DNA of 64,000 nucleotides, from assembly GCF_900167435.1 (NCBI RefSeq), contig NZ_FUWS01000004.1:186001-250000 (forward strand), read 5' to 3'. Positions 4,991 through 58,735 of the stretch are shown one piece after another. This stretch comes from Marinactinospora thermotolerans DSM 45154. GTDB taxonomy: Bacteria; Actinomycetota; Actinomycetes; Streptosporangiales; Streptosporangiaceae. The notes under the pieces were generated by a model. The model did not search any database. It saw only the letters and a program-made list of their open reading frames with translations, and was not told where the DNA came from. The number at the start of each line of letters is the position of its first letter. Positions within the stretch are counted from its first letter, which is position 1. A program made the translations under genes and the position numbers.

Positions 4991-5701
4991 GCGGAGGGGA
5001 CGGCGCCGCGACGGTGACTCCGACGTCCCTCCTGGTCGGCAGGGGGCCTGGGGAACGGGGGCCGGCGACGGACAGGATGCTCTCTCCCGCCTCGAAGCCC
5101 CTTCGGTCCGGCTCCCGGGGAAGGGGATTGCTCCGCCCGGCGGTTTCCCCGGTGCTTGGGCGCCGCCACGTGATCGGGGATGGTGCCGGACCAGGGGCGC
5201 CGCCCCGGGTGGAGGAGCCCGCGATGCTCTCCATCCCGGACCACCACACCTCGGGTTGCCGCCGTACCGAAGGAATCCTCCCCGTGAATCACCAGCCGGT
5301 GATTCGTACCCGACCGCGTAACAGTCCACGGATTCCCCGCCCTGTCCCGGCCCTTCGGGAGAACCGGATCCGGACGTGACCGTGCTGCTCGACCCGCTCG
5401 ACACCCTCCGTCATTCGCATGCCATGTCTTCAGCGCAGACACGGCTTCATCCGCGATCCCTCCACCGTGGGACAACCGACGCTGGGCTACCGGAGCGTCA
5501 TGAAAGGACACGAATGAGGTCCGCTCTGGCATGTCAGCAGCGCCCTGCGCGCACTCGTGGATTCCGGCTTATCTGTCCGCGCCTTCTCGGGGCCGGACGG
5601 GCCGGTGAATCCGGCGGACGCGGACCGCCGGAGCCGAGGCGGCGAATCGGACGGGCTCCGTCGAGGAGGAAGGTGACCGCGCTGGTCATGGCGCGCGCAC
5701 G
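4991..5701. other. Stretch without recognisable gene
   Basis: About 700 bp in which no frame on either strand resembles a known family. A short plus-strand segment near 5520-5650 (WHVSSALRALVDSGLSVRAF) looks protein-like but has no start and several frame problems. It may be a remnant. Confidence 0.4.
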
Positions 5702-6328
5702 TCAGTCGGTGATGATGACCTCGCGGTGGATCCAGGCGGGATCGTGGACCGCGTCGTGCATGAAGTGCCCGACGTCGGCGCGGCTGATCCGGGGAACCCC
5801 CTTCATCTCGATGTGATCGCCCACGCGGTAGGCGCCCTTGGCCGGACCGTTGGTGAGGGCGGTGGGGTAGACGATCGTCCAGTCCAGTCCGCTCGCGCGG
5901 ATGGTCTTCTCGGAGAGGGCCTTGTTGGCGTAGATGTCGCGCAGGAACGTCTTGTACATGGCCTTCTGAAGGGGCGCTGCCGATTCGTATGTGGCGCCCA
6001 CCCCGTACGACGACATCCAGACGAGGCGGGAGACCCCGGTCTTCTTCGCCACCGCGTCCACCGCACTCGCCGCTCGCGTGAAGAGATCATTGGCGCGGAT
6101 GGAGGTGCCGCGGCCGATGGTGGAGATGACCGCGTCCTGGTCGGCCATCGCCTTCGCCAGGTCGTCGGCCGACGTCGCGTCTCCCGCGACGACGGTGACG
6201 CGCCCCGCCAGGGGAGCGAGCCTCTCCGGCCGGCGGGCGAGGACGGTGACCGTGTCGCCGTGTTCGAGCGCGCGTTCGACGACATGCTTCCCTGTGTGGC
6301 CGGTCGCCCCCAGGATCAGCAGCTTCAT
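5702..6328 (-). CDS. NAD(P)H-binding atypical SDR (NmrA/BVR-B-like)
   Basis: A 208-residue atypical short-chain dehydrogenase-like protein. The N-terminal MKLLILGATGHTGKHVVERA carries the GATGxTG dinucleotide-binding motif, followed by RRPERL (NADP phosphate contact) and VVAGDATSADDL. It lacks a classical YxxxK, as expected for NmrA/biliverdin-reductase-B-like proteins, so it may be a sensor or a reductase. Two copies of an operator also found in front of the neighbouring TetR gene lie in its promoter region, so that regulator very likely controls it. Confidence 0.85.
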   Translation of the reverse strand: MKLLILGATGHTGKHVVERALEHGDTVTVLARRPERLAPLAGRVTVVAGDATSADDLAKAMADQDAVISTIGRGTSIRANDLFTRAASAVDAVAKKTGVSRLVWMSSYGVGATYESAAPLQKAMYKTFLRDIYANKALSEKTIRASGLDWTIVYPTALTNGPAKGAYRVGDHIEMKGVPRISRADVGHFMHDAVHDPAWIHREVIITD

Positions 6329-6386
6329 ACCCGTGTCCCTCTCTGCGCCCGAGCATCGCGGCCTTCCAGGAAGGCGACACCCGCCA

Positions 6387-6434
6387 AGCGGACAGCTGTC
6401 CGGCTGACCGGAGCGTAGCGGACGACTGTCCGCC
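6387..6434 (-). promoter_or_regulatory. Two TetR operator copies upstream of the NmrA-like gene
   Basis: Two related palindromes lie 30 bp apart: AGCGGACAGCTGTCCGGC (6387-6404, perfect core 6389-6402) and AGCGGACGACTGTCCGCC (6417-6434). A third copy with the same AGCGGACnnCTnTCCG pattern is upstream of the TetR gene at 7062-7079. Confidence 0.7.
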
Positions 6435-6460
6435 TGACAAGGACGCCCAGAGGGACGACG

Positions 6461-7042
6461 TTACCGGAGGGCGCGGGGTCCCGCCTGGAGCGCTGCCATG
6501 ACCAGATCGAGGAGCCGCTCGGCGCGGGCCTCCCACCGCTCATCGGGGGCGATCTGCCACAGGCCGGAGACCAGGATGACGAAGTCCTCGACCGTGATGT
6601 CCGGCCGGATGGTGCCGGCTCGCCGATTCGCGGCGAGGAGGGTCTCGATGGCCCCGATGACCAGGGCGTACCCCGGGCGGGCGGATGTGTCCTCGGCGCC
6701 GTCCGTCTGACGTGTCACGCCGCCCAGGCCGGCCTTGGTGAGCGCGAAGCGGGCCAGCTGTGACATCCACGCCCGCAGCGCGCGGTCGGGCTCGGTCGCC
6801 TCGGTCAGTTCGTGGGCGGAGCCGACGAGCCCTTCGACTTCGCGCTGGTGGACCGCCCAGAGAAGGGCTTCCCGGTCGGGGAAGTGGCGGTACAGGGTGC
6901 CCTGGCCGACCCCGGCGCGTTTGCCGATCGCGCTCAGTGACACGTCCGCGTCGCGTGCGAGCTCCACGACGGCGGCCTTGAGAATGCGCTCCCTGTTGCG
7001 CTGCGCGTCAGCGCGCTGCACCGCTTCGCCGGCTCGGGTCAT
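6461..7042 (-). CDS. TetR/AcrR-family transcriptional regulator
   Basis: A 193-residue TetR repressor. The N-terminal helix-turn-helix spans about residues 15-60 (RERILKAAVVELARDADVSL, then AGVGQGTLYRHFPDREALLW). The remainder is the variable ligand-binding domain. It lies just upstream of, and on the same strand as, the NmrA-like gene, with about 130 bp between them. A shared operator sequence precedes both genes, so autoregulation plus control of the reductase is the likely arrangement. The ligand is unknown. Confidence 0.9.
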   Translation of the reverse strand: MTRAGEAVQRADAQRNRERILKAAVVELARDADVSLSAIGKRAGVGQGTLYRHFPDREALLWAVHQREVEGLVGSAHELTEATEPDRALRAWMSQLARFALTKAGLGGVTRQTDGAEDTSARPGYALVIGAIETLLAANRRAGTIRPDITVEDFVILVSGLWQIAPDERWEARAERLLDLVMAALQAGPRALR

Positions 7043-7056
7043 GTCTCATCCTCCCG

Positions 7057-7084
7057 GTACAAGCGGACGGCTCTCCGTTTGTAC
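7057..7084 (-). promoter_or_regulatory. TetR auto-operator
   Basis: An imperfect dyad (10 of 12 positions per arm) running from GTAC at 7057 to GTAC at 7084 lies 14 bp upstream of the TetR start. Its core at 7062-7079 matches the two sites in front of the NmrA-like gene. Confidence 0.6.
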
Positions 7085-7280
7085 TGTACGCCCACGCCGG
7101 AGAGTGAAGGAGGCGATCTGCCTGGCCGCACCTGGAGACCCCGGTCTCGTAGGAGACGGCCGGCGCTGTGACCATGCGGGGCCGGTGGGACCACATGGTC
7201 GGCCGCGGCCGTGCCGTCCACCGTGGTAGGGATCGTCCTGGCCGAGGCGGAGAGGGGTTGACGCGATCGACCGCGAGGCG

Positions 7281-7604
7281 GTGATCCGGCTATCCAACAC
7301 ACTCCTGACCTCGGTCCAGGGCCACGCCCCCGAGGACCGCCTGCGCGTCGAGGCCGTCTACGACGAGGAACGCGCCATCCTCAAGATCATCGTGCTGGGG
7401 GCGTTCGGCGCCATGTCGGAGGTGCTGAGGAGCATCGGCACGCTGATCGGGGACGCGTCCGCTCCACGGGCTCCCGCGCCGGTGGTGGAGGGTGCGGCCC
7501 GCCCACCGGCCGGGGTGGCCACGCTCCGGCTCCCGCGGGAACCGCGTCCACCAGGTGTTCCGCGAGGTCGGCCGGTCGAGCATCCCGGGATCGAGAGGCG
7601 ATGA
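7281..7604 (+). CDS. Small hypothetical protein or gene remnant
   Basis: From GTG 7281 the frame encodes a plausible alpha/beta segment (RLSNTLLTSVQG, RLRVEAVYDEERAILKIIVL) up to about residue 60, then decays into a Pro/Arg-rich tail typical of non-coding GC-rich DNA. Upstream residues DAIDREAV also look coding but have no start codon in frame. This may be a fragment of a longer gene rather than a functional small protein. I do not recognise the family. Confidence 0.3.
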   Translation: MIRLSNTLLTSVQGHAPEDRLRVEAVYDEERAILKIIVLGAFGAMSEVLRSIGTLIGDASAPRAPAPVVEGAARPPAGVATLRLPREPRPPGVPRGRPVEHPGIERR

Positions 7605-7619
7605 GCGCGGGGCAGACGC

Positions 7620-8510
7620 TCAGAGGGAACGCTCGGGGAAGGTGACCTTCGTCAGCTCTTCGGAGACCTCCCACAGGCGGCGCGCCACCTCGGTGTCGCG
7701 CGCCCGCGCCGAGCGGCCGACCGGCTTCGGGGCGCCGCGTCCCTCCAGGAAGCCCCCCGGGCCCACGTAACCGTCGCCCGGCATCTCCGCCACGGCCGCG
7801 TAGAGCGTCGGAAGGGCCCCGTCCTCGTCGCTCTGCGTGAAAAGCGCGATCGCCGCCTTCTGCGCGAGGTGGACCGCGCGTCGCCGGCCGTCGGGTCTCA
7901 GCAGGTTCGTGGCCGCTACGCCGGGGTGCGCGGCGGTCGCGATCACCGGTGAGCCGACGCGGGCGAGCCGTCGTTGGAGTTCGGTCGTGAACAGCAAATT
8001 GGCCAGCTTGGATTGTGCGTAGGCGGCTATCGCGCGGTAGGGCCTGTGCTCCCAGTTGAGGTCGCCGAAATCGATCGCGCCCACCCTGTGCCCGTTGGAG
8101 GAGACGGTGACGACCCGCTCCCGGATCCGTGGCAGGAGCAGGTTGGTGAGCGCGAAGTGTCCCAGGTGGTTGGTCCCGAACTGTAGCTCGAAGCCGTCGG
8201 CCGTGCGGGAGAGCGGCGGGATCATGACCCCCGCGTTGTTGATCAGCACGTCGACGGGCTCGGTGAAGTTCTCGGCGAACGCGCGGACCGAGGAGAGGTC
8301 GGCGAGGGCGAGCGGCCGGACCTCGACGTGGCCGGTCATCGTGGCGGCGGCCGCGCGGCCCTTCTCGGGGCTGCGCACGGCGAGCACGACGCGCGCCTCC
8401 CTGGCGGCGAGGACACGGGCGGTCACGCGGCCGATCCCGCTGTTCGCGCCGGTGATGACGACGGTGCGTCCCGCCAGGGAGGGGATGTCGGAAACGGAGA
8501 ATGTTGTCAT
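7620..8510 (-). CDS. Short-chain dehydrogenase/reductase
   Basis: A 296-residue classical/extended SDR similar to retinol-dehydrogenase-like and protochlorophyllide-reductase-like oxidoreductases. The NADP-binding motif is TGANSGIG (about residues 20-27), followed by NNAGVM, the catalytic serine region VTVSSNGHRVG and the active-site YAQSK. It is transcribed divergently from a TetR gene and the start codon lies beside a TetR-type palindrome, so substrate-inducible expression is likely. The substrate is unknown. Confidence 0.9.
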   Translation of the reverse strand: MTTFSVSDIPSLAGRTVVITGANSGIGRVTARVLAAREARVVLAVRSPEKGRAAAATMTGHVEVRPLALADLSSVRAFAENFTEPVDVLINNAGVMIPPLSRTADGFELQFGTNHLGHFALTNLLLPRIRERVVTVSSNGHRVGAIDFGDLNWEHRPYRAIAAYAQSKLANLLFTTELQRRLARVGSPVIATAAHPGVAATNLLRPDGRRRAVHLAQKAAIALFTQSDEDGALPTLYAAVAEMPGDGYVGPGGFLEGRGAPKPVGRSARARDTEVARRLWEVSEELTKVTFPERSL

Positions 8511-8511
8511 G

Positions 8512-8545
8512 GACTACAAAGTAGTCAGCGAAAACAAAGTAGTCA
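8512..8545. promoter_or_regulatory. TetR operator in SDR/TetR divergent region
   Basis: A perfect dyad GACTAC-AAA-GTAGTC (8512-8526) is followed by a direct repeat of its right half, ACAAAGTAGTCA (8516-8527 and 8534-8545). The first copy overlaps the SDR start codon, so binding would block the minus-strand transcript; the position also suits autoregulation. Confidence 0.65.
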
Positions 8546-8574
8546 ATGCAAACATGACTGCTATCGTAGATCCC

Positions 8575-9180
8575 ATGGCAGACGTGACCCAAGGGCGGCC
8601 CTACCACCACGGAAACCTCCGGGCCGCGCTGCTCGACGCGGCCGAGCGCGTCCTACGGGAGCGCGGCGTGGACCAGTTGTCGCTGCGCGAGCTGGCCAAG
8701 GAGACGGGCGTCAGTCACGCCGCGCCGCGCCGGCACTTCCCGGATCGCCAGGCACTGCTGGACGCGCTCGCCGAGGCCGGATTCGCCCAGCTCGACACCG
8801 CGTTGCGTAGCGCGCTGGCGAACGCCGGCGACGACTTCCCGGCTCGTGCGCGTGCCGCCGCGACGGCCTACACCCGCTTCGCCACCGAGAACGCCGCGCT
8901 CCTGGAGCTGATGTACACCAGCAAGCACCGGCCGGGTGCGACACGGATCGTCAAGGCGGCCGAAGCGCCATTCGGGCTGTTGAACGCGCTGATCGTGCAG
9001 GGGCAGGAGCGAGGGGAGCTCCAGGCGGGCGACCCCGAGCGGATCGGGATCGTCCTGTTCGCGACCCTTCAGGGCATCGCCTCGATCATCAACGGCAATA
9101 TCGTCAAACCGGAACTGCGCGACGGACTCGTGGAGGCCGCGGTCGACCAGTTCTTGCGGGGCACCCGCCCGCTTCCGTAG
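8575..9180 (+). CDS. TetR/AcrR-family regulator (GRPYHHGNL type)
   Basis: A 201-residue TetR protein starting MADVTQGRPYHHGNLRAALL, the signature N-terminus of a well-known actinobacterial subgroup. The recognition region is LRELAKETGVSHAAPRRHF. The C-terminal half is the TetR ligand-binding domain (YTRFATENAALLELMY). ATG 8575 gives the usual start of this subgroup; ATG 8554 is an in-frame alternative. It is divergent from the SDR gene and probably represses it and itself through the palindrome between them. Confidence 0.9.
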   Translation: MADVTQGRPYHHGNLRAALLDAAERVLRERGVDQLSLRELAKETGVSHAAPRRHFPDRQALLDALAEAGFAQLDTALRSALANAGDDFPARARAAATAYTRFATENAALLELMYTSKHRPGATRIVKAAEAPFGLLNALIVQGQERGELQAGDPERIGIVLFATLQGIASIINGNIVKPELRDGLVEAAVDQFLRGTRPLP

Positions 9181-9860
9181 AACCCGCCCGCGCAGTGCCG
9201 CGGCCGGGCGTCGTCAGGGCGAGGGCCCTAGCGCGCGCTCCGCCACCGTTGTCCCGCGGGCCGCCGCCCACGCGCGCCGTTGGAGCTACTCTCCCCCGGC
9301 GCCGTTTCGGCGTGCCGGTTTCCCGTTGGGGGTCCGGGAGGCCGGGACGGAGACGTCGACGCCGTGGTTCCACCGGGTGGGGCCGGTGGCGACCTCGGCG
9401 GGCCTCCGCGTCACCACCGGCCGGCCCCCTGCGGGTAAGGAGGGCTCAAGGCGTCACGGGCCGGCAGGCGATACCGGATCTCCCGGGAGGAACGGGAGAT
9501 CTTCACCGGGACACCCGTGACCGGCCGCGCCCCCGGGCGGGCGCGAGCGGGTCGTCGAGCAGCACGGGAGAGGAGTCCACGCCCCGAGCGTACGGAGAAC
9601 GGTCCTGGTCACGTTGTCGTACGCCTGGCCTTCTCGACACTCCAGCCCCTGCCCAGGCCCCTTCCAGGGCGGTCGAGGGGGAGTGTTCAACGAATGATCG
9701 ACATTCGGACACGCACAGGGCTTCGCGCTCAGTCACTGACATCACGGAGGGCGTTACCGGCACAACCCTGACCGGCCCCTCGGGGGCGACGGCGGTCCTC
9801 CCGATCTCGGCCCCGGTCCAGGTGAGAGGTTCCGCTGTCTGACTGTGTCCCACGCCACTG
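9181..9860. other. Intergenic stretch without recognisable gene
   Basis: About 680 bp with no convincing gene. A hairpin with 9-bp perfect arms, GATCTCCCG/CGGGAGATC (9477-9485/9493-9501), is the only clear structure. A short frame nearby (RRYRISREEREIFTG) may be a relic. Confidence 0.45.
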
Positions 9861-30038: not shown

Positions 30039-30074
30039 ATGACCGCGCACACGCCCAGGAGCGACCGGCGATGA
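30039..30074 (+). CDS. 11-residue upstream ORF overlapping the LLM-hemerythrin start
   Basis: ATG 30039 follows a strong AGGAGA and encodes MTAHTPRSDRR, with its TGA overlapping the next ATG (ATGA at 30071-30074). It is too short for a family assignment. It most likely serves translational coupling of the fusion gene; that gene also has its own AGGAG 9 bp before its start. Confidence 0.4.
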   Translation: MTAHTPRSDRR

Positions 30075-31624
30075 CGGACTACGGCCACCCGCTGTCCTTC
30101 GGGGCCTTCATCACCCCGGCCAACGCCGACCCCGCACGGACGGTCGACCTCGCCGTCCTCTCCGAACAGGTCGGACTGGACCTGGTGAGCTTCCAGGACC
30201 ATCCCTACCAGCCGGCCTTCCTCGACACCTGGACCCTGTTGAGCTACGTCGCGGCCCGCACCCAGCGTGTGCGCCTGGCCGCCAACGTCACCAACCTGCC
30301 CTTGCGGCCACCGGCGGTGCTGGCCCGCAGCGTGGCCAGCCTGGACCTGCTCAGCGGCGGCCGGGTGGAACTCGGCCTGGGCGCCGGAGGGTTCTGGGAC
30401 GCGATCGAGGCCATGGGCGGACGCCGGCTCACCGGCGGGCAGGCCGTGCGTTCCCTGGAGGAGGCCATCGACGTCATCCGACAGATGTGGGACGTTCAGG
30501 CGCGCGGCGGCGTCCGCGTCGACGGCGAGTTTCACCGGGTGTGGGGCGCCAAGCGCGGCCCGGCGCCGGCCCACCGCGCCGAGATCTGGCTCGGCGCCTA
30601 CAAGCCGCGCATGCTGGCCCTGACCGGGCGCGCGGCCGACGGTTGGCTGCCGTCGATGCCCTACCTGAAACCCGGAGACCTCACCGCCGGCAACACGATC
30701 GTCGACGAGGCCGCGCAGGAGGCGGGCCGGTCCCCCTCGCAGGTGCGCCGGCTGCTCAACATCACCGGCCGCTTCGCCCCGGCCTCGCGCGGCCCGCTGG
30801 ACGGCCCGGTCGGGCAGTGGGTCGAGGAACTCGCCGAACTGGCCCTGGACGAGGGCGTGAGCGTGTTCATCCTCGGCAGCGACGACCCGGACGACCTGCG
30901 CCGCTTCGCCGCCGAGGTGGCCCCGGCCGTACGCGAGCTGGTGGCCGCCGAACGCTCCCCCTCCGCCCCCGCGGCCGCCTCCCGGCCCAGGGCCGCGTCG
31001 GTCACCCGGACCGGCGAGGCGCGCGGCCCCTTCGCCGTCCTCCCCACGCCGGACGACGGCGTCCGCCGCAGTGACAGGCGGGTGTGGGACGAGTCGACCC
31101 GGCCCACCGGGCCGGCGCCGGACCCCGAGCGCACCTACACCGCGCGCGAGCAGGCCGCCGGACAGCACCTGGTCGACGTCCACGACGCGCTGCGCGCCGA
31201 ACTCGCCCAGATCCACGACCTCATCGACCAGGTGGCCGCCGGGGCGATGGACGTCGGCACCGCGCGTTCGCACATCAACACGATGACCATGCGCCAGAAC
31301 AACTGGACGCTGGGCACCTACTGCGAGTCCTACTGCCGGGTCGTCACCACCCACCACACGATCGAGGACCAGTCGATGTTCCCCCACCTGCGGCGTCGCG
31401 ACCCCCGCCTCGCCCCGGTGATCGACCGGCTGGAGGAGGAGCACCGGGCCATCCACGACGTGCTCGAAGGGGTCGACCGGGCGCTGGTGGCCTTCGTGTC
31501 CAGGCCGGACGGCATGGCCGAACTCCGCGCCGCGGTGGACCTGCTCACCGACACCCTGCTGTCGCACCTGGCCTACGAGGAGCGGGAGCTCGTCGAGCCG
31601 ATCGCCCGGCTCGGGATGCACTGA
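30071..31624 (+). CDS. F420/FMN-dependent LLM-class oxidoreductase fused to hemerythrin
   Basis: A 517-residue two-domain protein. Residues 1-300 are a luciferase-like (beta/alpha)8 flavin domain (SFGAFITPANADPARTVDLA, then VASLDLLSGGRVELGLGAGG, AEIWLGAYKPRMLALTGRAA). A proline/alanine-rich linker follows at about 300-360. Residues 365-517 are a hemerythrin-like four-helix bundle with His/Glu ligands in HLVDVHD, TTHHTIEDQSMFPHL, EEEHRAIHDVLE and LSHLAYEERELV. The hemerythrin half could supply a diiron O2 or redox sensor. The fusion occurs in actinomycetes but its substrate is unknown. Confidence 0.88.
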   Translation: MTDYGHPLSFGAFITPANADPARTVDLAVLSEQVGLDLVSFQDHPYQPAFLDTWTLLSYVAARTQRVRLAANVTNLPLRPPAVLARSVASLDLLSGGRVELGLGAGGFWDAIEAMGGRRLTGGQAVRSLEEAIDVIRQMWDVQARGGVRVDGEFHRVWGAKRGPAPAHRAEIWLGAYKPRMLALTGRAADGWLPSMPYLKPGDLTAGNTIVDEAAQEAGRSPSQVRRLLNITGRFAPASRGPLDGPVGQWVEELAELALDEGVSVFILGSDDPDDLRRFAAEVAPAVRELVAAERSPSAPAAASRPRAASVTRTGEARGPFAVLPTPDDGVRRSDRRVWDESTRPTGPAPDPERTYTAREQAAGQHLVDVHDALRAELAQIHDLIDQVAAGAMDVGTARSHINTMTMRQNNWTLGTYCESYCRVVTTHHTIEDQSMFPHLRRRDPRLAPVIDRLEEEHRAIHDVLEGVDRALVAFVSRPDGMAELRAAVDLLTDTLLSHLAYEERELVEPIARLGMH

Positions 31625-31745: not shown

Positions 31746-32867
31746 TCAGACCCCGCCCAGGTAGTCCTCCGCCCCTCCGTCCCGGACGGTGTCGAGGGTG
31801 ACGCAGTGGAATCCCCCGCCCAGGACACGCGCGTGCCGCAGCCGGTGCGGCAGGACGTCGATCCCATGCCGTTCCAGGGCCGCGATCAGCTCGGTCTGGT
31901 CGGCGTCGACCACGGCGGTCCGCGGATCGACCATGAGCAGGTTCATCCCGACCCACGGGGTGCTCAGGGTGTGCGGCAGCACCGTCGGCCCGGTGCGCAT
32001 CGGCGGACACCAGATGACGTCCCAGCCGCGCAGCGGGGCCGGAACGGTCTCGGGGGTGACCCGTTCGGGGTTGAGGAGGACCAGCCCGGGACGCAGCAGC
32101 GCGATCGTGCTGTCGATGTGGGTCCCCTCGTAGAGGCCCACCAGCGGGTGCAGCCGGATCTCGCCCAGCAGGCGCAACGTGGACTCCAGCCAGCGGAACC
32201 CCATCCGGTTGCCGCTGCGCGAGACCTGGTAGAAGACGTCACGCCCCAGCCGCAGACAGTTGGCCGCCTCGAAGGCCGGCTCGGCCTCGCCCAGCACGGG
32301 CCTTCCCCGCTCGTCGTACTCGTAAAGCTCGTCACGGAGCCGGGGCTTGGGCGCCGCCAGCCAGTGCGCTCCGCGCAGCAGGTAGTCCTGGAACAGGTCG
32401 CGGAGCCCGAACAGCTCGTTGTAGCGGGCCCGCATGGGGCTGGGGGTCTCGATGATGGTCGTCCCCACGACCAGGGCGAGGTCGCGGGGACAGTAGGAGC
32501 TGCGCCCGCGCGAGCGCCACCCCGGCGCGCCGTACTCGTCCGCGTGGTCGACCGCCGGTGGCCGGTGCACGGTGACCCCGAGCCCGCGCAGCGCCGCCGC
32601 CAGCTCCTCCAGGTCCTCGTTGGACTCCTCGATGACCCGTGCCGGGAACAGGCCGGTCTCGATGCGTTCCAGCTCGGCGGGGCCGAGGTCGGGATAGCAG
32701 TTGAGCCAGGCCGAGGGGTCGCGCTGGTCGGGGATGCGCGAATGGGTGGCGTCACCGACGATCACCTCGCGCAACGTGGTGAACTCGTCCCACGAGTGGA
32801 CCGCGGGACGTGGGGCCGCGGCGGCGGCCGGAGGTCGTGGGGAGGAGAGGGAACCTGGGGCGGACAT
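31746..32867 (-). CDS. Amidinotransferase (glycine/inosamine-phosphate amidinotransferase family)
   Basis: A 373-residue enzyme of the AGAT/StrB superfamily, which moves the amidino group from arginine to an amine to make a guanidino compound. Catalytic landmarks are EAANCLRLGRDVF (Asp region), EGTHIDSTIALL (His) and the C-terminal nucleophile in LGGGFHCVTLDT (Cys). It is the last gene of the operon, 36 bp after the ATP-grasp ligase. In PGM1-type clusters this enzyme makes the guanidino-amino acid that the ligase attaches to a peptide; that role is inferred here from context. Confidence 0.87.
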   Translation of the reverse strand: MSAPGSLSSPRPPAAAAAPRPAVHSWDEFTTLREVIVGDATHSRIPDQRDPSAWLNCYPDLGPAELERIETGLFPARVIEESNEDLEELAAALRGLGVTVHRPPAVDHADEYGAPGWRSRGRSSYCPRDLALVVGTTIIETPSPMRARYNELFGLRDLFQDYLLRGAHWLAAPKPRLRDELYEYDERGRPVLGEAEPAFEAANCLRLGRDVFYQVSRSGNRMGFRWLESTLRLLGEIRLHPLVGLYEGTHIDSTIALLRPGLVLLNPERVTPETVPAPLRGWDVIWCPPMRTGPTVLPHTLSTPWVGMNLLMVDPRTAVVDADQTELIAALERHGIDVLPHRLRHARVLGGGFHCVTLDTVRDGGAEDYLGGV

Positions 32868-32903
32868 GCTGCTTCCCGTCGTGACGTGCCGGCTGGGATG
32901 GGG

Positions 32904-34226
32904 TCAGGGGGACAGGGCGGAGACGCGCTTCTCGTAGGCCCGGGCGGTTTCCAGGTCCTTGGCCACGACACAGTAGGTGACCCGGCCGCGACTGGCCGCG
33001 TAGTCGGCGGTGATCAGCACCCCCGTCCGCGAGGAGGGGTCGTAGGCGATCCCTTCCTCGGCGAGCGCCGCGAGCGCGGCGGGCAGGGAGGTCACCTCCC
33101 AGTGGGCGGCGCGTTCCAGGAAGATCCGACGTCGGCGGTGGTATTCGCCGACGACGCGGCCGATCACGTTCACGTGGATCTGGGTGGACGCGGTGACCCT
33201 GCCGTTGACCTCGCTGAAGAACAGCTCCCCGGCGGGGGTGCGGATGGCGTCGGCGCACAGGTTGCCGCGGTAGCCCATGGCCCGGAAGGCGTCGCACAGC
33301 CGGCGGGCCTGCTCGACCAGGCGCGCCTCCTCGTCCCGGGTGATCGAGACGGGCGGGATCACCTCGCCGGCGGCGACGGGCTCCATCAGGATCTCGCCGG
33401 TGCCCCGCAGTTCGCAGCCATTGTCGTCGACCTCGAACTCGGCGTAGACGGTCACCGCGTCGGTGAGGTAGCGCTCGATGACGACCCGGTGACCCCGGTG
33501 GCCGGTCAGCCACTCCCAGCGGCGGTCCAGGTAGTCGCGCAGGGACTCGTCGTCGGGCAGCGTGACGACCTCCAGGGCCCCGGCCGCCCGGACCCGGCCG
33601 TCGCGGCTGAGGATCTCGTTGCCCAGGCCACCGGCCGCCACCTGCTGTTTCACCATGACGGGGTGGCCGGAGTCCAGGAGCGTCCTGATCGCCGTCTCCG
33701 CGCGTTCGCGCCGGTCGGTGGAGACGCCGGGGGCCACGGGGACCCCCGCCGCGGCGGCGACCGCGCGGAACACCGCCTTGTTGTTGGCCAGCGCGTCGCC
33801 CTCGTGGGAGCTGAAGGCGTGGCCGGGGACTGCGGCCTCGAAACCCAGCGCCGAGGCCAGGTCGGTGACGGCCAGGTCGGTGTAGAAGCACACCACCCGC
33901 CGCGCCGGACGGTCGGCGAGCACCGAGGCGAGTTCCGCCCGGAAGGAGGGCGCGTACAGGCGGTCGGCGCTGAGTACGTCGGGGCCGAGCGAGCCGGGCG
34001 GGGGGACCAGGACGCGCAGTGTCTCCGGGTCGGTGTCGGTCACCGTGGTCACGTAGTCGAGGTAGACCGGATCGGGCCGTGAGGGCAGGACGAGGACGTC
34101 GCCGGTGCGCGCGTACCACAGCAGGCGGTGGGCACCCTGCCCGAAGGCCCGCAGGCGTTCCGGCGACACCCGGGTGAGGTCGCCGACGATCTCCTCGGGG
34201 AAGTTGGCGATGAGCAGCGTTGTCAC
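32904..34226 (-). CDS. PGM1-type ATP-grasp peptide ligase
   Basis: A 440-residue ligase with a preATP-grasp N-terminal domain (TTLLIANFPEEIVGDLTRVS), ATP-grasp core (NNKAVFRAVAAAAGVPVAPG; VMVKQQVAAGG as the ATP-binding lysine/glycine loop; LCADAIRTPAGELFFSEVNG with the Mg-binding E/N pair) and a C-terminal PGM1-like domain (TGVLITADYAASRGRVTYCV). Such enzymes join a guanidino-amino acid to a peptide or amino acid. GTG 34226 is chosen because GGAGG lies 7 bp before it. Exporter and amidinotransferase genes flank it in one operon. Confidence 0.85.
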   Translation of the reverse strand: MTTLLIANFPEEIVGDLTRVSPERLRAFGQGAHRLLWYARTGDVLVLPSRPDPVYLDYVTTVTDTDPETLRVLVPPPGSLGPDVLSADRLYAPSFRAELASVLADRPARRVVCFYTDLAVTDLASALGFEAAVPGHAFSSHEGDALANNKAVFRAVAAAAGVPVAPGVSTDRRERAETAIRTLLDSGHPVMVKQQVAAGGLGNEILSRDGRVRAAGALEVVTLPDDESLRDYLDRRWEWLTGHRGHRVVIERYLTDAVTVYAEFEVDDNGCELRGTGEILMEPVAAGEVIPPVSITRDEEARLVEQARRLCDAFRAMGYRGNLCADAIRTPAGELFFSEVNGRVTASTQIHVNVIGRVVGEYHRRRRIFLERAAHWEVTSLPAALAALAEEGIAYDPSSRTGVLITADYAASRGRVTYCVVAKDLETARAYEKRVSALSP

Positions 34227-34279
34227 GACGGCGCCTCCACGGTCGGGACGGGGATGGGACTCGGGGCGGGGCCGAGGGG

Positions 34280-35557
34280 TCAGCGTTCCCGGCGGGCCGG
34301 ATCGGTGGAGGGGGCGCGTCCGGTCCGGGTCAGGGCCGCCCACGTGAGCGCCGTGACCCCCAGGCCGAGGAGCGTCAGACCGGAGACGAGCAGTACCCCT
34401 TGGGCGCCGAGGGCGATGAGCAGCGGCGTCGCGGCCATGGCCCCCAGCGGAGAGGCCATCCCGGTGAGCGCACCCCGCGCGGCGAGGACCTGCGGCAGCG
34501 AACCGGGATCCGCCGAACGCTGGAACAGGGCGGTCGTCGTCGCGGGGAACGGCCCCCAGAAGAGACCGCACAGACCGAAGCAGACCCAGGACACGATGAC
34601 CGGCGGTCCCAGGCCGATCCCCGCCAGCGCGCCGCCGAAGCCGAGGATGATCACCGTGGTGGCGGGCAGCAGGGGCACCCGGCGCAGGTAGCCCGCGAGG
34701 AGGGCGCCGGCCACCGCGCCGACGCCGAAGGCGGTGTAGAACCCGGCGAGGACGGAGGCGGGGGCGCCCAGGTCCTCCACCACGTGGATCGGGATGGCCA
34801 CGGTGGAGGGGCCGAAGAACAGGAAGAAACCGAAGGAGAGCAGGAGGAGACCGAGCAGGGCGGGGTCCCGGACGATCGCGCGCAGCCCCTCGCTCCTGGA
34901 CGCTCCCGCCTCCACCCTGCTCGTCCGGTGGTCGGCGGGGACGGCGAACCGGTAGGTCGCGGCGAGGACCGCGAAGGACAGGGCGACCAGGCCCAGGACG
35001 TGTTCGGGGCCGCCGTGCTCGATGACCAGGGCGGCCAGGAGCGGCCCGACCACGGTGGACAGTTCCAGCATGACGTTGACGACCGCGTTGCCCGCGAGAT
35101 GGTGTTCCCGTGGCAGCAGCTCGGAGAGCATCGTGTAGCGGCCGGCCTTGCCCCAGGCGCTGAACAGAGAGGAGACCCCGAGCAGGACCACGTACAGCAG
35201 GACGTCCAGCGCCCCCGCCATGTGCAGCAGGGGGATCGCCGCGAGCGCGACGGCCCGCAGGATCGCGTCCCAGCCGGCGAGCTGGGCGCCGCTGCGTCCG
35301 TTGAGGAGACGCCCGAAGACGAGCACGCCGAGCGTTCCGGGAAGGACGTAGGCGGTGACCGCCGCGGTGACCCAGACGGCCCGTTGGTCGGCGGGGGCCA
35401 GGGAGATGGCCAGCCAGCTCACCGCGACGGAGCTCATCCCGCCGCCGAGGGCGGACACGCCGATGCCGGGCAGGATCCGCCGGAGCAGGGGGTGGGTGAG
35501 GACCGGCCAGTACGGTGTTCGTTCGGCGGCTCGCGCCAGCGCCGAATTCCTGAGCAT
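34280..35557 (-). CDS. MFS transporter, likely product exporter
   Basis: A 425-residue major facilitator with about 12 hydrophobic segments, starting with LLRRILPGIGVSALGGGMSS. The loop between helices 2 and 3 carries LLNGRSGAQLAG (degenerate motif A) and the central loop is hydrophilic (residues about 205-225). It precedes the peptide ligase by 53 bp. Homologous three-gene sets (exporter, PGM1 ligase, amidinotransferase) occur in guanidino-peptide clusters, so export of, and self-protection from, such a product is the likely job. Confidence 0.87.
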   Translation of the reverse strand: MLRNSALARAAERTPYWPVLTHPLLRRILPGIGVSALGGGMSSVAVSWLAISLAPADQRAVWVTAAVTAYVLPGTLGVLVFGRLLNGRSGAQLAGWDAILRAVALAAIPLLHMAGALDVLLYVVLLGVSSLFSAWGKAGRYTMLSELLPREHHLAGNAVVNVMLELSTVVGPLLAALVIEHGGPEHVLGLVALSFAVLAATYRFAVPADHRTSRVEAGASRSEGLRAIVRDPALLGLLLLSFGFFLFFGPSTVAIPIHVVEDLGAPASVLAGFYTAFGVGAVAGALLAGYLRRVPLLPATTVIILGFGGALAGIGLGPPVIVSWVCFGLCGLFWGPFPATTTALFQRSADPGSLPQVLAARGALTGMASPLGAMAATPLLIALGAQGVLLVSGLTLLGLGVTALTWAALTRTGRAPSTDPARRER

Positions 35558-35600
35558 CGCGTGAACGCTTTCCGTGGAGGGGAGCCTGCGCCCTGTGTGC

Positions 35601-35678
35601 TTATGGGAGAGCCGGGGGCTCCCTGAAAGGCCGGCGCGGGACCGGAGGGTCGCCGTTTCCGGCCCCGCTCTCCGTCAT
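35601..35678 (-). CDS. 25-residue ORF between minigene and exporter
   Basis: ATG 35678, 8 bp after the minigene stop, opens a 25-codon frame beginning MTESGAGNGDPPVPRR and rich in Pro and Arg, ending at TAA 35601-35603. It has no ribosome-binding site of its own, so expression would need translational coupling to the minigene. It may be chance; if real it is a candidate second peptide substrate. Confidence 0.25.
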   Translation of the reverse strand: MTESGAGNGDPPVPRRPFREPPALP

Positions 35679-35686
35679 GCGATGGG

Positions 35687-35704
35687 TTAGAAGGGCATCT
35701 TCAT
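35687..35704 (-). CDS. Pentapeptide minigene MKMPF
   Basis: ATG 35704 is preceded by TTGGAGGTGGACACG, giving GGAGG an ideal 8-bp spacing. It encodes Met-Lys-Met-Pro-Phe and a TAA stop. A stop codon lies 13 codons upstream in frame and no better start exists, so the strong ribosome-binding site serves only this minigene. It heads the operon containing exporter, peptide ligase and amidinotransferase. It may be a peptide substrate for the ligase or a regulatory leader peptide. Coding minigenes this small are known (biarylitide precursors), but no homology is claimed. Confidence 0.45.
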   Translation of the reverse strand: MKMPF

Positions 35705-35758
35705 CGTGTCCACCTCCAAGAGGCCCGACCAGGGCGACGATCAACCGACGCCCCCCGA

Positions 35759-35800
35759 ACGTTAACCTCGGATTCCCGAAAAAGACAAGGACTTTTTCGG
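35759..35800 (-). promoter_or_regulatory. Predicted promoter and dyad of the ligase operon
   Basis: On the minus strand, TTGTCT (35788-35783) and TAACGT (35764-35759) with an 18-bp spacer form a plausible promoter, giving a leader of about 47 nt to the minigene. A perfect hairpin CCGAAAAAG/CTTTTTCGG (35776-35784/35792-35800) overlaps the -35 element and may be an operator. Confidence 0.45.
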
Positions 35801-57639: not shown

Positions 57640-58735
57640 GCCTGGAAACCGTGGAGCCGTCCTCGTCAGCTCGTACCCGGCACAGCGTTGGCCAGGAGGA
57701 CCTCTGCCGCCGCCCGGGTGGGCGCGGTGTTCGAGGCACTGGAGCACACCCTCACCCATGCGAGCAGGTTGCGCCCCGACCACGTCGTCTTACGCTCTGT
57801 CCAGACCCTCACCGCCGGCGTGTGGGGGACCGACCCCGCCATCCTCGCCCTGGATCCAGGGTCCGAGGCTCCGCCGGCATGTCGTGTCCACGCCGCGCTC
57901 GACGGCCGCGCGCCCGCCGTCGACGTTCCACTCTTCCTCACCTGCCCCTCCTACCTCGGTGCCGGCGCCGCTCCGCTCCCACCTGGGCGACACCCACGAC
58001 CACACGTCCGCGGCCCGCTACAGCGCCAACAGCGGCAGCGCCATCGGTGCCTCCCGCCCCGAGGCCCTGGTCCACGCCCTGGCCGAGGCGATGGAGCGCG
58101 GCGCCTACTCGCTGTTGCTGGCCACGGTCTTCCTCGGCCCTGGTGGGCGCGTGGCTCGCGTCTTACGACCCGAGTCCCTCCCCGATGACCTCGCCCGGTG
58201 GCACGATCTGGCCCAGCGCAAGGTGCGTGGTCCCGTGCACCTTCTGGAGATGACCACCGACCTGGGGGACCCGCGTTCTGCGCGTACGCCCTGTCCGGCG
58301 AGGGCGTCCCGGTGCAGGGCAAGGAGCATCGCTGTCGGCCCGCCTGGCACTGGTCGCGCCCTGAGCGAACTCGTCCAGTGCGCCGCCGTGGCCGACCACG
58401 ACGGCCAGGAGGCCATCACGCCCGATCTGCGCGCGCTGCGGGCCTATCCCGTACTGCTGGCGGCGGGCCGGGCCGACTTCGGCCCGCACCTGGCCGCGGC
58501 CCGGCCGGTGGACTTCCACGACACCGCCGCGCCGGCCACCCCGGTGGCCACCTGCGCGGGCTCACGGCCGCCGTGACCGCGCGCGGCCACACCCCCTATG
58601 CCGCTGTCGTGCACACCGCCCCCACCGGTGTATGCACGGTGAGCGTGGTGGTGCCCGGCCCGCGCGCTCACGCCCTTCTGGGCGGATCGCCAGCGGTGTG
58701 GGGGTCGGGCCCTGGGAACCGGCAGGTGCCCTCAG
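57640..58735 (+). pseudogene. YcaO-domain protein (RiPP cyclodehydratase type), frameshifted
   Basis: Successive frames encode ARVGAVFEALEHTLTHASRL, PLFLTCPSYLG, then ARYSANSGSAIGASRPEALV with HALAEAMERGAY (the YcaO ATP-binding signature), VARVLRPESLPDDLARWHDL, VHLLEMTTDLG, then in another frame PAFCAYALSGEGVP, then ALSELVQCAAVADHDGQEAI and ARGHTPYAAVVHTAPTGVC. At least three frameshifts (about 57955, 58265 and 58555) and an intermediate frame change near 58340 break it. YcaO enzymes phosphorylate peptide amides to make azolines or thioamides. No precursor peptide or partner gene remains. Confidence 0.72.

Follow-up and report, generated by a model that had tools for sequence, protein, structure and literature searches.

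What is made by an operon in which a gene of only five codons precedes an exporter, a peptide ligase and an amidinotransferase, and does the five-codon gene contribute to the product? The question is raised by a minus-strand unit of Marinactinospora thermotolerans DSM 45154, found in a window of 64,000 nucleotides (the whole stretch of DNA analysed: contig NZ_FUWS01000004.1, positions 186,001 to 250,000) and extending from 35704, where the minigene begins, down to 31746, the end of the amidinotransferase gene (Table 1). Comparative sequence analysis makes it rather probable that this cassette is a minimal four-gene system for a ribosomally synthesized and post-translationally modified peptide (RiPP), with the logic of guanidinotides (a class name applied to pheganomycin in PMC9484694), in which the peptide encoded by the minigene would be capped at its N-terminus with a guanidino acid.

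The families of the three large genes are clear. A previous, sequence-only reading of the region had described a closely spaced minus-strand set comprising an exporter of the major facilitator superfamily (MFS), an ATP-grasp ligase and an amidinotransferase, and mentioned a minigene in its title only. All four are present, and the intergenic gaps are indeed short (53 bases between exporter and ligase, 36 between ligase and amidinotransferase, all on the minus strand); the exporter assignment was upheld by its Pfam match. The ligase matched the crystal structure of PGM1 (PDB 3wvq, E 1.5e-97) over residues 25–438 of its 440, the second-best structure being another ATP-grasp peptide ligase (8ynd, E 3.2e-27), and the preATP-grasp and PGM1-like C-terminal domains that had been proposed for it were recovered by profile search (PreAtp-grasp, E 2.9e-27; PGM1_C, E 8e-18), together with an ATP-grasp core of the CPSase type (E 2.9e-8). 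The amidinotransferase had no Pfam or NCBIfam match at E 0.01; it aligned with StrB (PDB 1bwd, E 7.1e-90) better than with AGAT (about 1e-58), SxtG or HsvA. In two alignments the cysteine of its GGGFHC motif, Cys355, lined up with those of StrB and AGAT, so the earlier assignment of an AGAT/StrB-type enzyme with its catalytic cysteine also holds.

Table 1. Features of the window referred to in the text (positions are counted from the first nucleotide of the window)
Feature	Position	Strand	Details
Minigene	35687-35704	minus	18 bp, ATGAAGATGCCCTTCTAA, encoding MKMPF; proposed precursor (leader MK, core MPF)
Shine-Dalgarno GGAGG	35713-35717	minus	8 bases ahead of the minigene ATG; read from the sequence
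Spacer, minigene to exporter	35558-35686	minus	G+C-rich hairpins possible; no T-run
MFS exporter	34280-35557	minus	425 aa; Pfam MFS_1, E 2.4e-26; 60-74% identity to the three other cassettes
PGM1-type ATP-grasp peptide ligase	32904-34226	minus	440 aa; GTG start; 53-61% identity to the other cassettes
StrB-like amidinotransferase	31746-32867	minus	373 aa; catalytic Cys355; 77-80% identity to the other cassettes
Gene beside the cassette	30071-31624	plus	luciferase-like monooxygenase domain joined to a hemerythrin domain
YcaO-like open reading frame	57758-58576	plus	272 codons; weak partial YcaO match at 57950-58447 (E 7e-8, positions 90-251 of 325); perhaps a remnant

How widely does this set occur? 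Ligase matches at E 1e-20 or better were found in 18 of 345 genomes of the window's taxonomic order and, in a sample of the class, in 11 of 394 (some of them shared with the order set). Both an exporter and an amidinotransferase stood beside the ligase in three of the 26 ligase loci compared, L017, L018 and L019 (genomes G075, G204 and G111 respectively), which represent three different genera and have the uniform order MFS–ligase–amidinotransferase; the idea that the three genes belong together was thus borne out in four genera, that of the window included. Twelve of the 26 loci (L030–L041) carried only about 1.5 kb of flank (L030 was later widened, as L097), so the absence of minigene or partners from them is weak evidence. 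Outside the four cassettes, a comparison of 766 six-frame open frames of at least 80 codons (which are not gene calls) gave just two matches to another neighbourhood at E 1e-6, one of them from a frame antisense to the final part of the amidinotransferase gene, and the other a weak L017/L019 pair (28% over some 80–90 residues) several kb from both cassettes. As no other gene is common to the four neighbourhoods, the shared unit is minigene–MFS–ligase–amidinotransferase, and with nothing else shared around it the cassette appears self-contained and may move as a block. Searched against a plasmid collection, the ligase found 11 records and the exporter 10, with no record in both; the amidinotransferase found 43, three of which were looked at among the 15 matches listed. 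Among the large genes, the ligase is the most diverged from its counterparts in L017–L019 and the amidinotransferase the least (Table 1), as if the peptide-facing enzyme were the fastest-changing of the cassette.

The minigene is what sets this cassette apart. That of the window, ATGAAGATGCCCTTCTAA, is of biarylitide size by architecture only, and counterparts occupy the same place in the other three genera, encoding MTMPF (L017), MKMPY (L018) and, from a GTG start, MKKLPFAG (L019). In all four cassettes the minigene has a ribosome site (GGAGG or AGGAGG) at a spacing of 8 and lies 147 to about 350 bases ahead of the exporter gene. The pentapeptides have Lys or Thr at position 2, Met at 3, Pro at 4, and Phe or Tyr at 5; in MKKLPFAG, a Leu-Pro-Phe triplet is shifted one residue later and followed by two extra residues. 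Conservation ends sharply at the minigene edges: averaged over the pairs formed by the window, L017 and L018, identity was 85% within the 18 bp and 83% in the 6-base ribosome site, compared with 21% in the 65 bases upstream and 33% in the 82 bases downstream. This conservation and the ribosome site lead us to infer that the minigene is translated. A pattern representing the pentapeptide genes (GAGG-N5-9-ATG-A(A/C)N-ATG-CCN-T(A/T)Y-TAR) was matched three times in 345 whole genomes, once for each MxMP(F/Y) cassette, and its backwards control nowhere in them; since the pattern was written from those three cassettes themselves, the informative part of this result is that nothing else in the 345 genomes matches. 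A loosened version found one match in the window and none in 100 dinucleotide shuffles.

None of the 23 other PGM1-type ligase loci, many of which carry only 1.5 kb of flank, had, ahead of the ligase and on its strand, a frame of 3–14 residues behind a strong ribosome site; two had such a frame inside the ligase gene, which is the level expected by chance. In all, the scan gave chance frames within the ligase genes of L031, L034 and L019 as well as that of the window; L017, L019 and the window had such frames past the ligase. A search around PGM1-type ligases for pentapeptides like those of biarylitide (byt) clusters, with Asp at position 4 or an aromatic core, had a single match, MKWRH (L019, position 8678), which was likewise set aside, as it lies at the ligase start and has a weak ribosome site. 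Scanning parts of L047, L036 and L027 with looser settings produced several short frames, none of them convincing.

A small open frame ahead of an exporter gene need not be a precursor. Might ribosomes stall or drop off at MKMPF, perhaps in sensing a product or drug, and so control the exporter and the enzymes, with the ligase acting on other substrates? The minigene is the first cistron ahead of the MFS gene, and in this it is like the erm- and cat-type leaders and the pentapeptides of erythromycin resistance. If it were a leader for this exporter family, relatives of the exporter might be expected to share it. Exporter matches were present in 26 of 332 genomes of the order, with at least 60% identity only in the four cassette genomes; of the 20 compared as loci, four belong to cassettes and 16 (41–55% identical) are not beside a ligase. 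The minigene precedes all four of the former and none of the latter: 14 of the 16 have no frame of 3–20 residues with a ribosome site within 700 bases upstream, and the other two have an unrelated short frame (of 11 and 20 residues, at -556 and -452). The genomes of the 16 have no ligase match except G003, where it is on another contig, and reading by eye of the open frames around the four closest (L083–L086) revealed no repeated partner gene. The minigene therefore goes with the ligase cassette rather than with this family of exporters. The spacers themselves give a mixed picture. G+C-rich hairpins with strong stems follow the minigene in L017–L019, and the L019 spacer folds well by comparison with shuffles (z -2.9; -1.7 for L017 and -1.4 for L018), but the window spacer folds no better than its shuffles (z -0.6) and there is no run of four T in any of the four. 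Moreover, the L019 peptide is three residues longer, so that the stop codon has moved, and the minigene peptides do not fit the M-x-(L/I)-x-V rule for resistance peptides. The tests of exporter relatives and spacers have weakened the attenuator interpretation, which we consider rather unlikely. By eye, the L019 spacer also shows a sequence like CATCCTCACCACGTTCTTGCGGGG repeated several times in tandem, imperfectly.

If the minigene encodes a precursor, how might the four genes work together? The ribosome would make MKMPF from the 18-bp gene and, after deformylation, housekeeping aminopeptidases would trim the peptide from its N-terminus up to the X-Pro bond. General aminopeptidases stop before X-Pro, and such a halt would mean that trimming without any dedicated protease would deliver an X-Pro-aromatic peptide: Met-Pro-Phe in the window, and in the relatives Met-Pro-Tyr (from MKMPY) and Leu-Pro-Phe-Ala-Gly (from MKKLPFAG). 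With arginine as donor, the StrB-like amidinotransferase would amidinate the amine of an amino acid, giving a guanidino acid; as nothing in the cassette would make an unusual amine, primary metabolism probably supplies the acceptor. By analogy with PGM1, the ligase would use ATP to activate the guanidino acid at its carboxyl group and couple it to the peptide's free N-terminus, and the MFS protein would export the capped tri- to pentapeptide. In this specific form (a four-gene RiPP without leader-binding protein, cytochrome P450 or protease, in which proline is the aminopeptidase stop and an X-Pro-aromatic tripeptide receives a StrB-like guanidino cap), the scheme is put forward tentatively, and we would give it a little less than an even chance. 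Microcin C offers a partial parallel, since its MccA is a very short gene-encoded peptide modified at the expense of ATP and exported by an MFS protein; there, however, a ThiF-like enzyme adds a nucleotide to the C-terminus, whereas N-terminal ligation is proposed here.

The two enzymes could conceivably act the other way round, the amidinotransferase modifying the peptide itself (for example at the Lys2 side chain or an N-terminal amine) and the ligase adding an ordinary amino acid. Lysine does occupy position 2 in three of the four peptides, and two relatives of the enzyme outside cassettes (see below) are beside EctB-like and SbnA-like genes for diamino acids, which suggests side-chain amines as acceptors. 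On the other hand, MTMPF of L017 has no lysine and is accompanied by an amidinotransferase 77% identical to that of the window, and the known enzymes of the family have small molecules as substrates; peptide amidination is quite improbable.

The four cassette ligases formed one clade (support 100/99) within a larger group (100/100) that also contained the ligases of pheganomycin-type neighbourhoods, L001 and others, which agrees with the earlier expectation that the enzyme would group with peptide ligases; the branch joining the cassette clade to its neighbours was not firmly resolved (88/81). As the tree, of 27 rows (the partial ligases L033 and L041 and the distant L002 being left out), did not include PGM1 itself or the proven ligases of thiovarsolin (var) and ketomemicin (ktm) clusters or those associated with byt clusters, these clade statements concern the neighbourhood types of the compared loci. 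One such locus, L048 (S. globosus), has dihydroxyphenylglycine (dpg) genes and an annotated precursor of the pheganomycin family.

The amidinotransferases gave a different picture. Those beside other PGM1-type ligases (five rows) made up one clade on a branch of length 2.07 with 100/100 support, and the cassette enzymes, only 34–38% identical to that of S. globosus, fell outside it in a StrB-like group (the tree excludes the partial enzymes of L037 and L041, which share 86% and 51% identity with that of S. globosus). The sequence-only reading had regarded exporter, ligase and amidinotransferase as the core shared by pheganomycin, resorcinomycin and ketomemicin clusters: a PGM1-type ligase and an amidinotransferase are indeed present, but in this tree of PGM1-ligase neighbourhoods the amidinotransferase lies across a long, fully supported branch, so that one core enzyme differs from the pheganomycin-type set.

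Where else do such StrB-like enzymes occur? Matches were present in 10 of 323 genomes of genus g87 (presumably Streptomyces), and two relatives there, at 65–70% identity, had 18-kb neighbourhoods with no ligase or exporter match and only unrelated short frames. One of them (L061, 70%) is beside genes for a diaminobutyrate transaminase (EctB-like, over the NCBIfam cut-off) and a NodU-type carbamoyltransferase, possibly a pathway to guanidino-diaminobutyrate; by eye only, the cluster (L061, 7141-14820) also encodes an ornithine-carbamoyltransferase-like protein and a VioC-like dioxygenase. The other (L062, 65%; 5338-9310) accompanies a GntA-like N-hydroxylase (over the NCBIfam cut-off) and an SbnA-like enzyme (below it). 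On a plasmid of Amycolatopsis sp. FU40, a relative at 61% (L045:4375-6549) is fused to a class II tRNA-synthetase-like domain and adjoins genes for a GntD/VioC-like dioxygenase (below the cut-offs) and a phosphotransferase. From such diverse settings, it seems that the StrB-like group serves the making of guanidino-amino acids in several contexts, and that in the cassette it has been combined with a PGM1-type ligase. In a plasmid of Saccharopolyspora pogona (L046), the amidinotransferase match is divided between two genes. The cassette enzymes and L061 have Glu in a FEAAN motif where StrB, AGAT and the FU40, L062 and pheganomycin-type enzymes aligned have Asp, a site that we take to be that of AGAT Asp254.

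How does the cassette compare with systems already described? Pheganomycin (PGM1/PGM2) is similar in having a PGM1-type ligase, an amidinotransferase and, as proposed here, an N-terminally capped ribosomal peptide; a review (PMC8359417) describes selective acylation by PGM1 at the N-terminus of its precursor peptide. It differs in the clade of its amidinotransferase, and the 5–8-residue cassette precursors contrast with the 37 residues of that of L048. Queries from L048 for dpgA and dpgB (the dpg queries used), its radical SAM enzyme and its precursor had no match at E 1e-3 in the window or in L017–L019, in keeping with the absence of dihydroxyphenylglycine genes already reported for the window. 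Biarylitides provide the precedent for so small a gene: PMC13417212 describes 18-bp precursor genes (bytA), called the smallest known genes and missed by automatic annotation, which specify a two-residue leader and a tripeptide core, and reports a Pgm1 homologue and Asp at position 4 in 47 of 277 byt clusters. The likeness extends to the 18-bp gene, the M-(K/R) start, the tripeptide-size core and, for that subgroup of 47, the ligase. The byt clusters, though, have a cross-linking P450 (BytO), and no P450 match at E 1 was found in the window or L017–L019 with the one query used (from the S. decoyicus plasmid L047, not a proven BytO); nor do MKMPF, MTMPF and MKMPY, with Met at position 3, have cross-linkable Tyr, His or Trp at both 3 and 5, so that with Met at 3 and Pro at 4 the usual biarylitide 3–5 link is not expected.

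Thiovarsolins, thioamidated Ala-Pro-Arg (X-Pro-Arg) tripeptides, come from a seven-gene cluster that includes genes for an ATP-grasp ligase (varL), an MFS protein (varP) and an amidinotransferase (varS) without a known role (PMC6511847). The trio and the X-Pro tripeptide core resemble those of the cassette, which however has a minigene rather than a long repeat precursor, and no YcaO gene: YcaO genes are absent from G204, and in G000, G075 and G111 lie on other contigs or at a distance of at least about 22 kb (of the thiovarsolin YcaO–TfuA pair, the comparison covers YcaO). The YcaO-like frame of the window is listed in Table 1. Two ligases outside the cassette clade, those of L023 and L030/L097, have a YcaO gene no more than 3 kb away, and in L097 there are in addition dpgA, dpgB and an amidinotransferase of pheganomycin type; the two loci would be thiovarsolin-like clusters, and may attach guanidino-dihydroxyphenylglycine.

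Ketomemicin clusters, which pair an ATP-grasp peptide ligase with an amidinotransferase and involve no ribosomal peptide, raise the alternative of a guanidino dipeptide or pseudopeptide made non-ribosomally, along the lines of the resorcinomycin or ketomemicin pathway, the minigene being incidental. Their six-gene cluster (PMC11943689) also encodes an aldolase, a pyridoxal phosphate (PLP)-dependent C-acyltransferase, a dehydratase and a dehydrogenase, whereas the four cassettes share no gene beyond their own four, and the nine proteins in and around that of the window have no domain of an aldolase, PLP acyltransferase, dehydratase or dehydrogenase (ktm proteins were not used as queries). A minigene conserved in four genera with unlike flanks is hard to see as incidental, and with neither another shared gene nor a dpgA or dpgB match this alternative is very improbable indeed. 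The peptide partner of the guanidino acid is thus probably ribosomal, to which the conserved minigene points; the previous suggestion, of a minimal variant making a different guanidino-peptide, had left this partner open.

Several observations weigh against a capped ribosomal peptide and need to be set beside this. Only four cassettes are known, one of which has a longer peptide, and the amidinotransferase gene of that one (L019) is frameshifted in a draft contig; its spacer is also the one that folds as a regulatory leader might. No peptidase is encoded in the cassette, a promoter and terminator scan recognized no sigma-70-like promoter in the window's upstream region, and the amidinotransferases are not of the clade that accompanies other PGM1-type ligases. 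In the known clusters, deletion of varL, varP or varS changed no detected product (PMC6511847), and a byt cluster with an amidinotransferase gene, savT, yielded only the peptide without further modification (PMC13417212), so genes of this kind can remain idle in the laboratory.

Apart from the P450-linked biarylitides, no pathway with a PGM1-type ligase and a pentapeptide gene was found described in the open-access literature (subscription papers being outside this scope), and the peptide strings of the cassettes were not found in 5.39 million open papers; the product is probably a small, capped peptide of a hitherto undescribed kind. We have filed the cassette as a variant of guanidinotide-type RiPPs, its membership being provisional on the proposed ligation. 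If the proposal is right, this would be a very small guanidinotide system, in which the chemistry of the ligase is separated from dpg and P450 chemistry, and a four-gene setting in which to study the role of the orphan varL, varP and varS genes from thiovarsolin clusters. The cassette further suggests a rule for genome mining, namely to look for strong ribosome sites with genes of 4–8 codons beside PGM1-type ligases.

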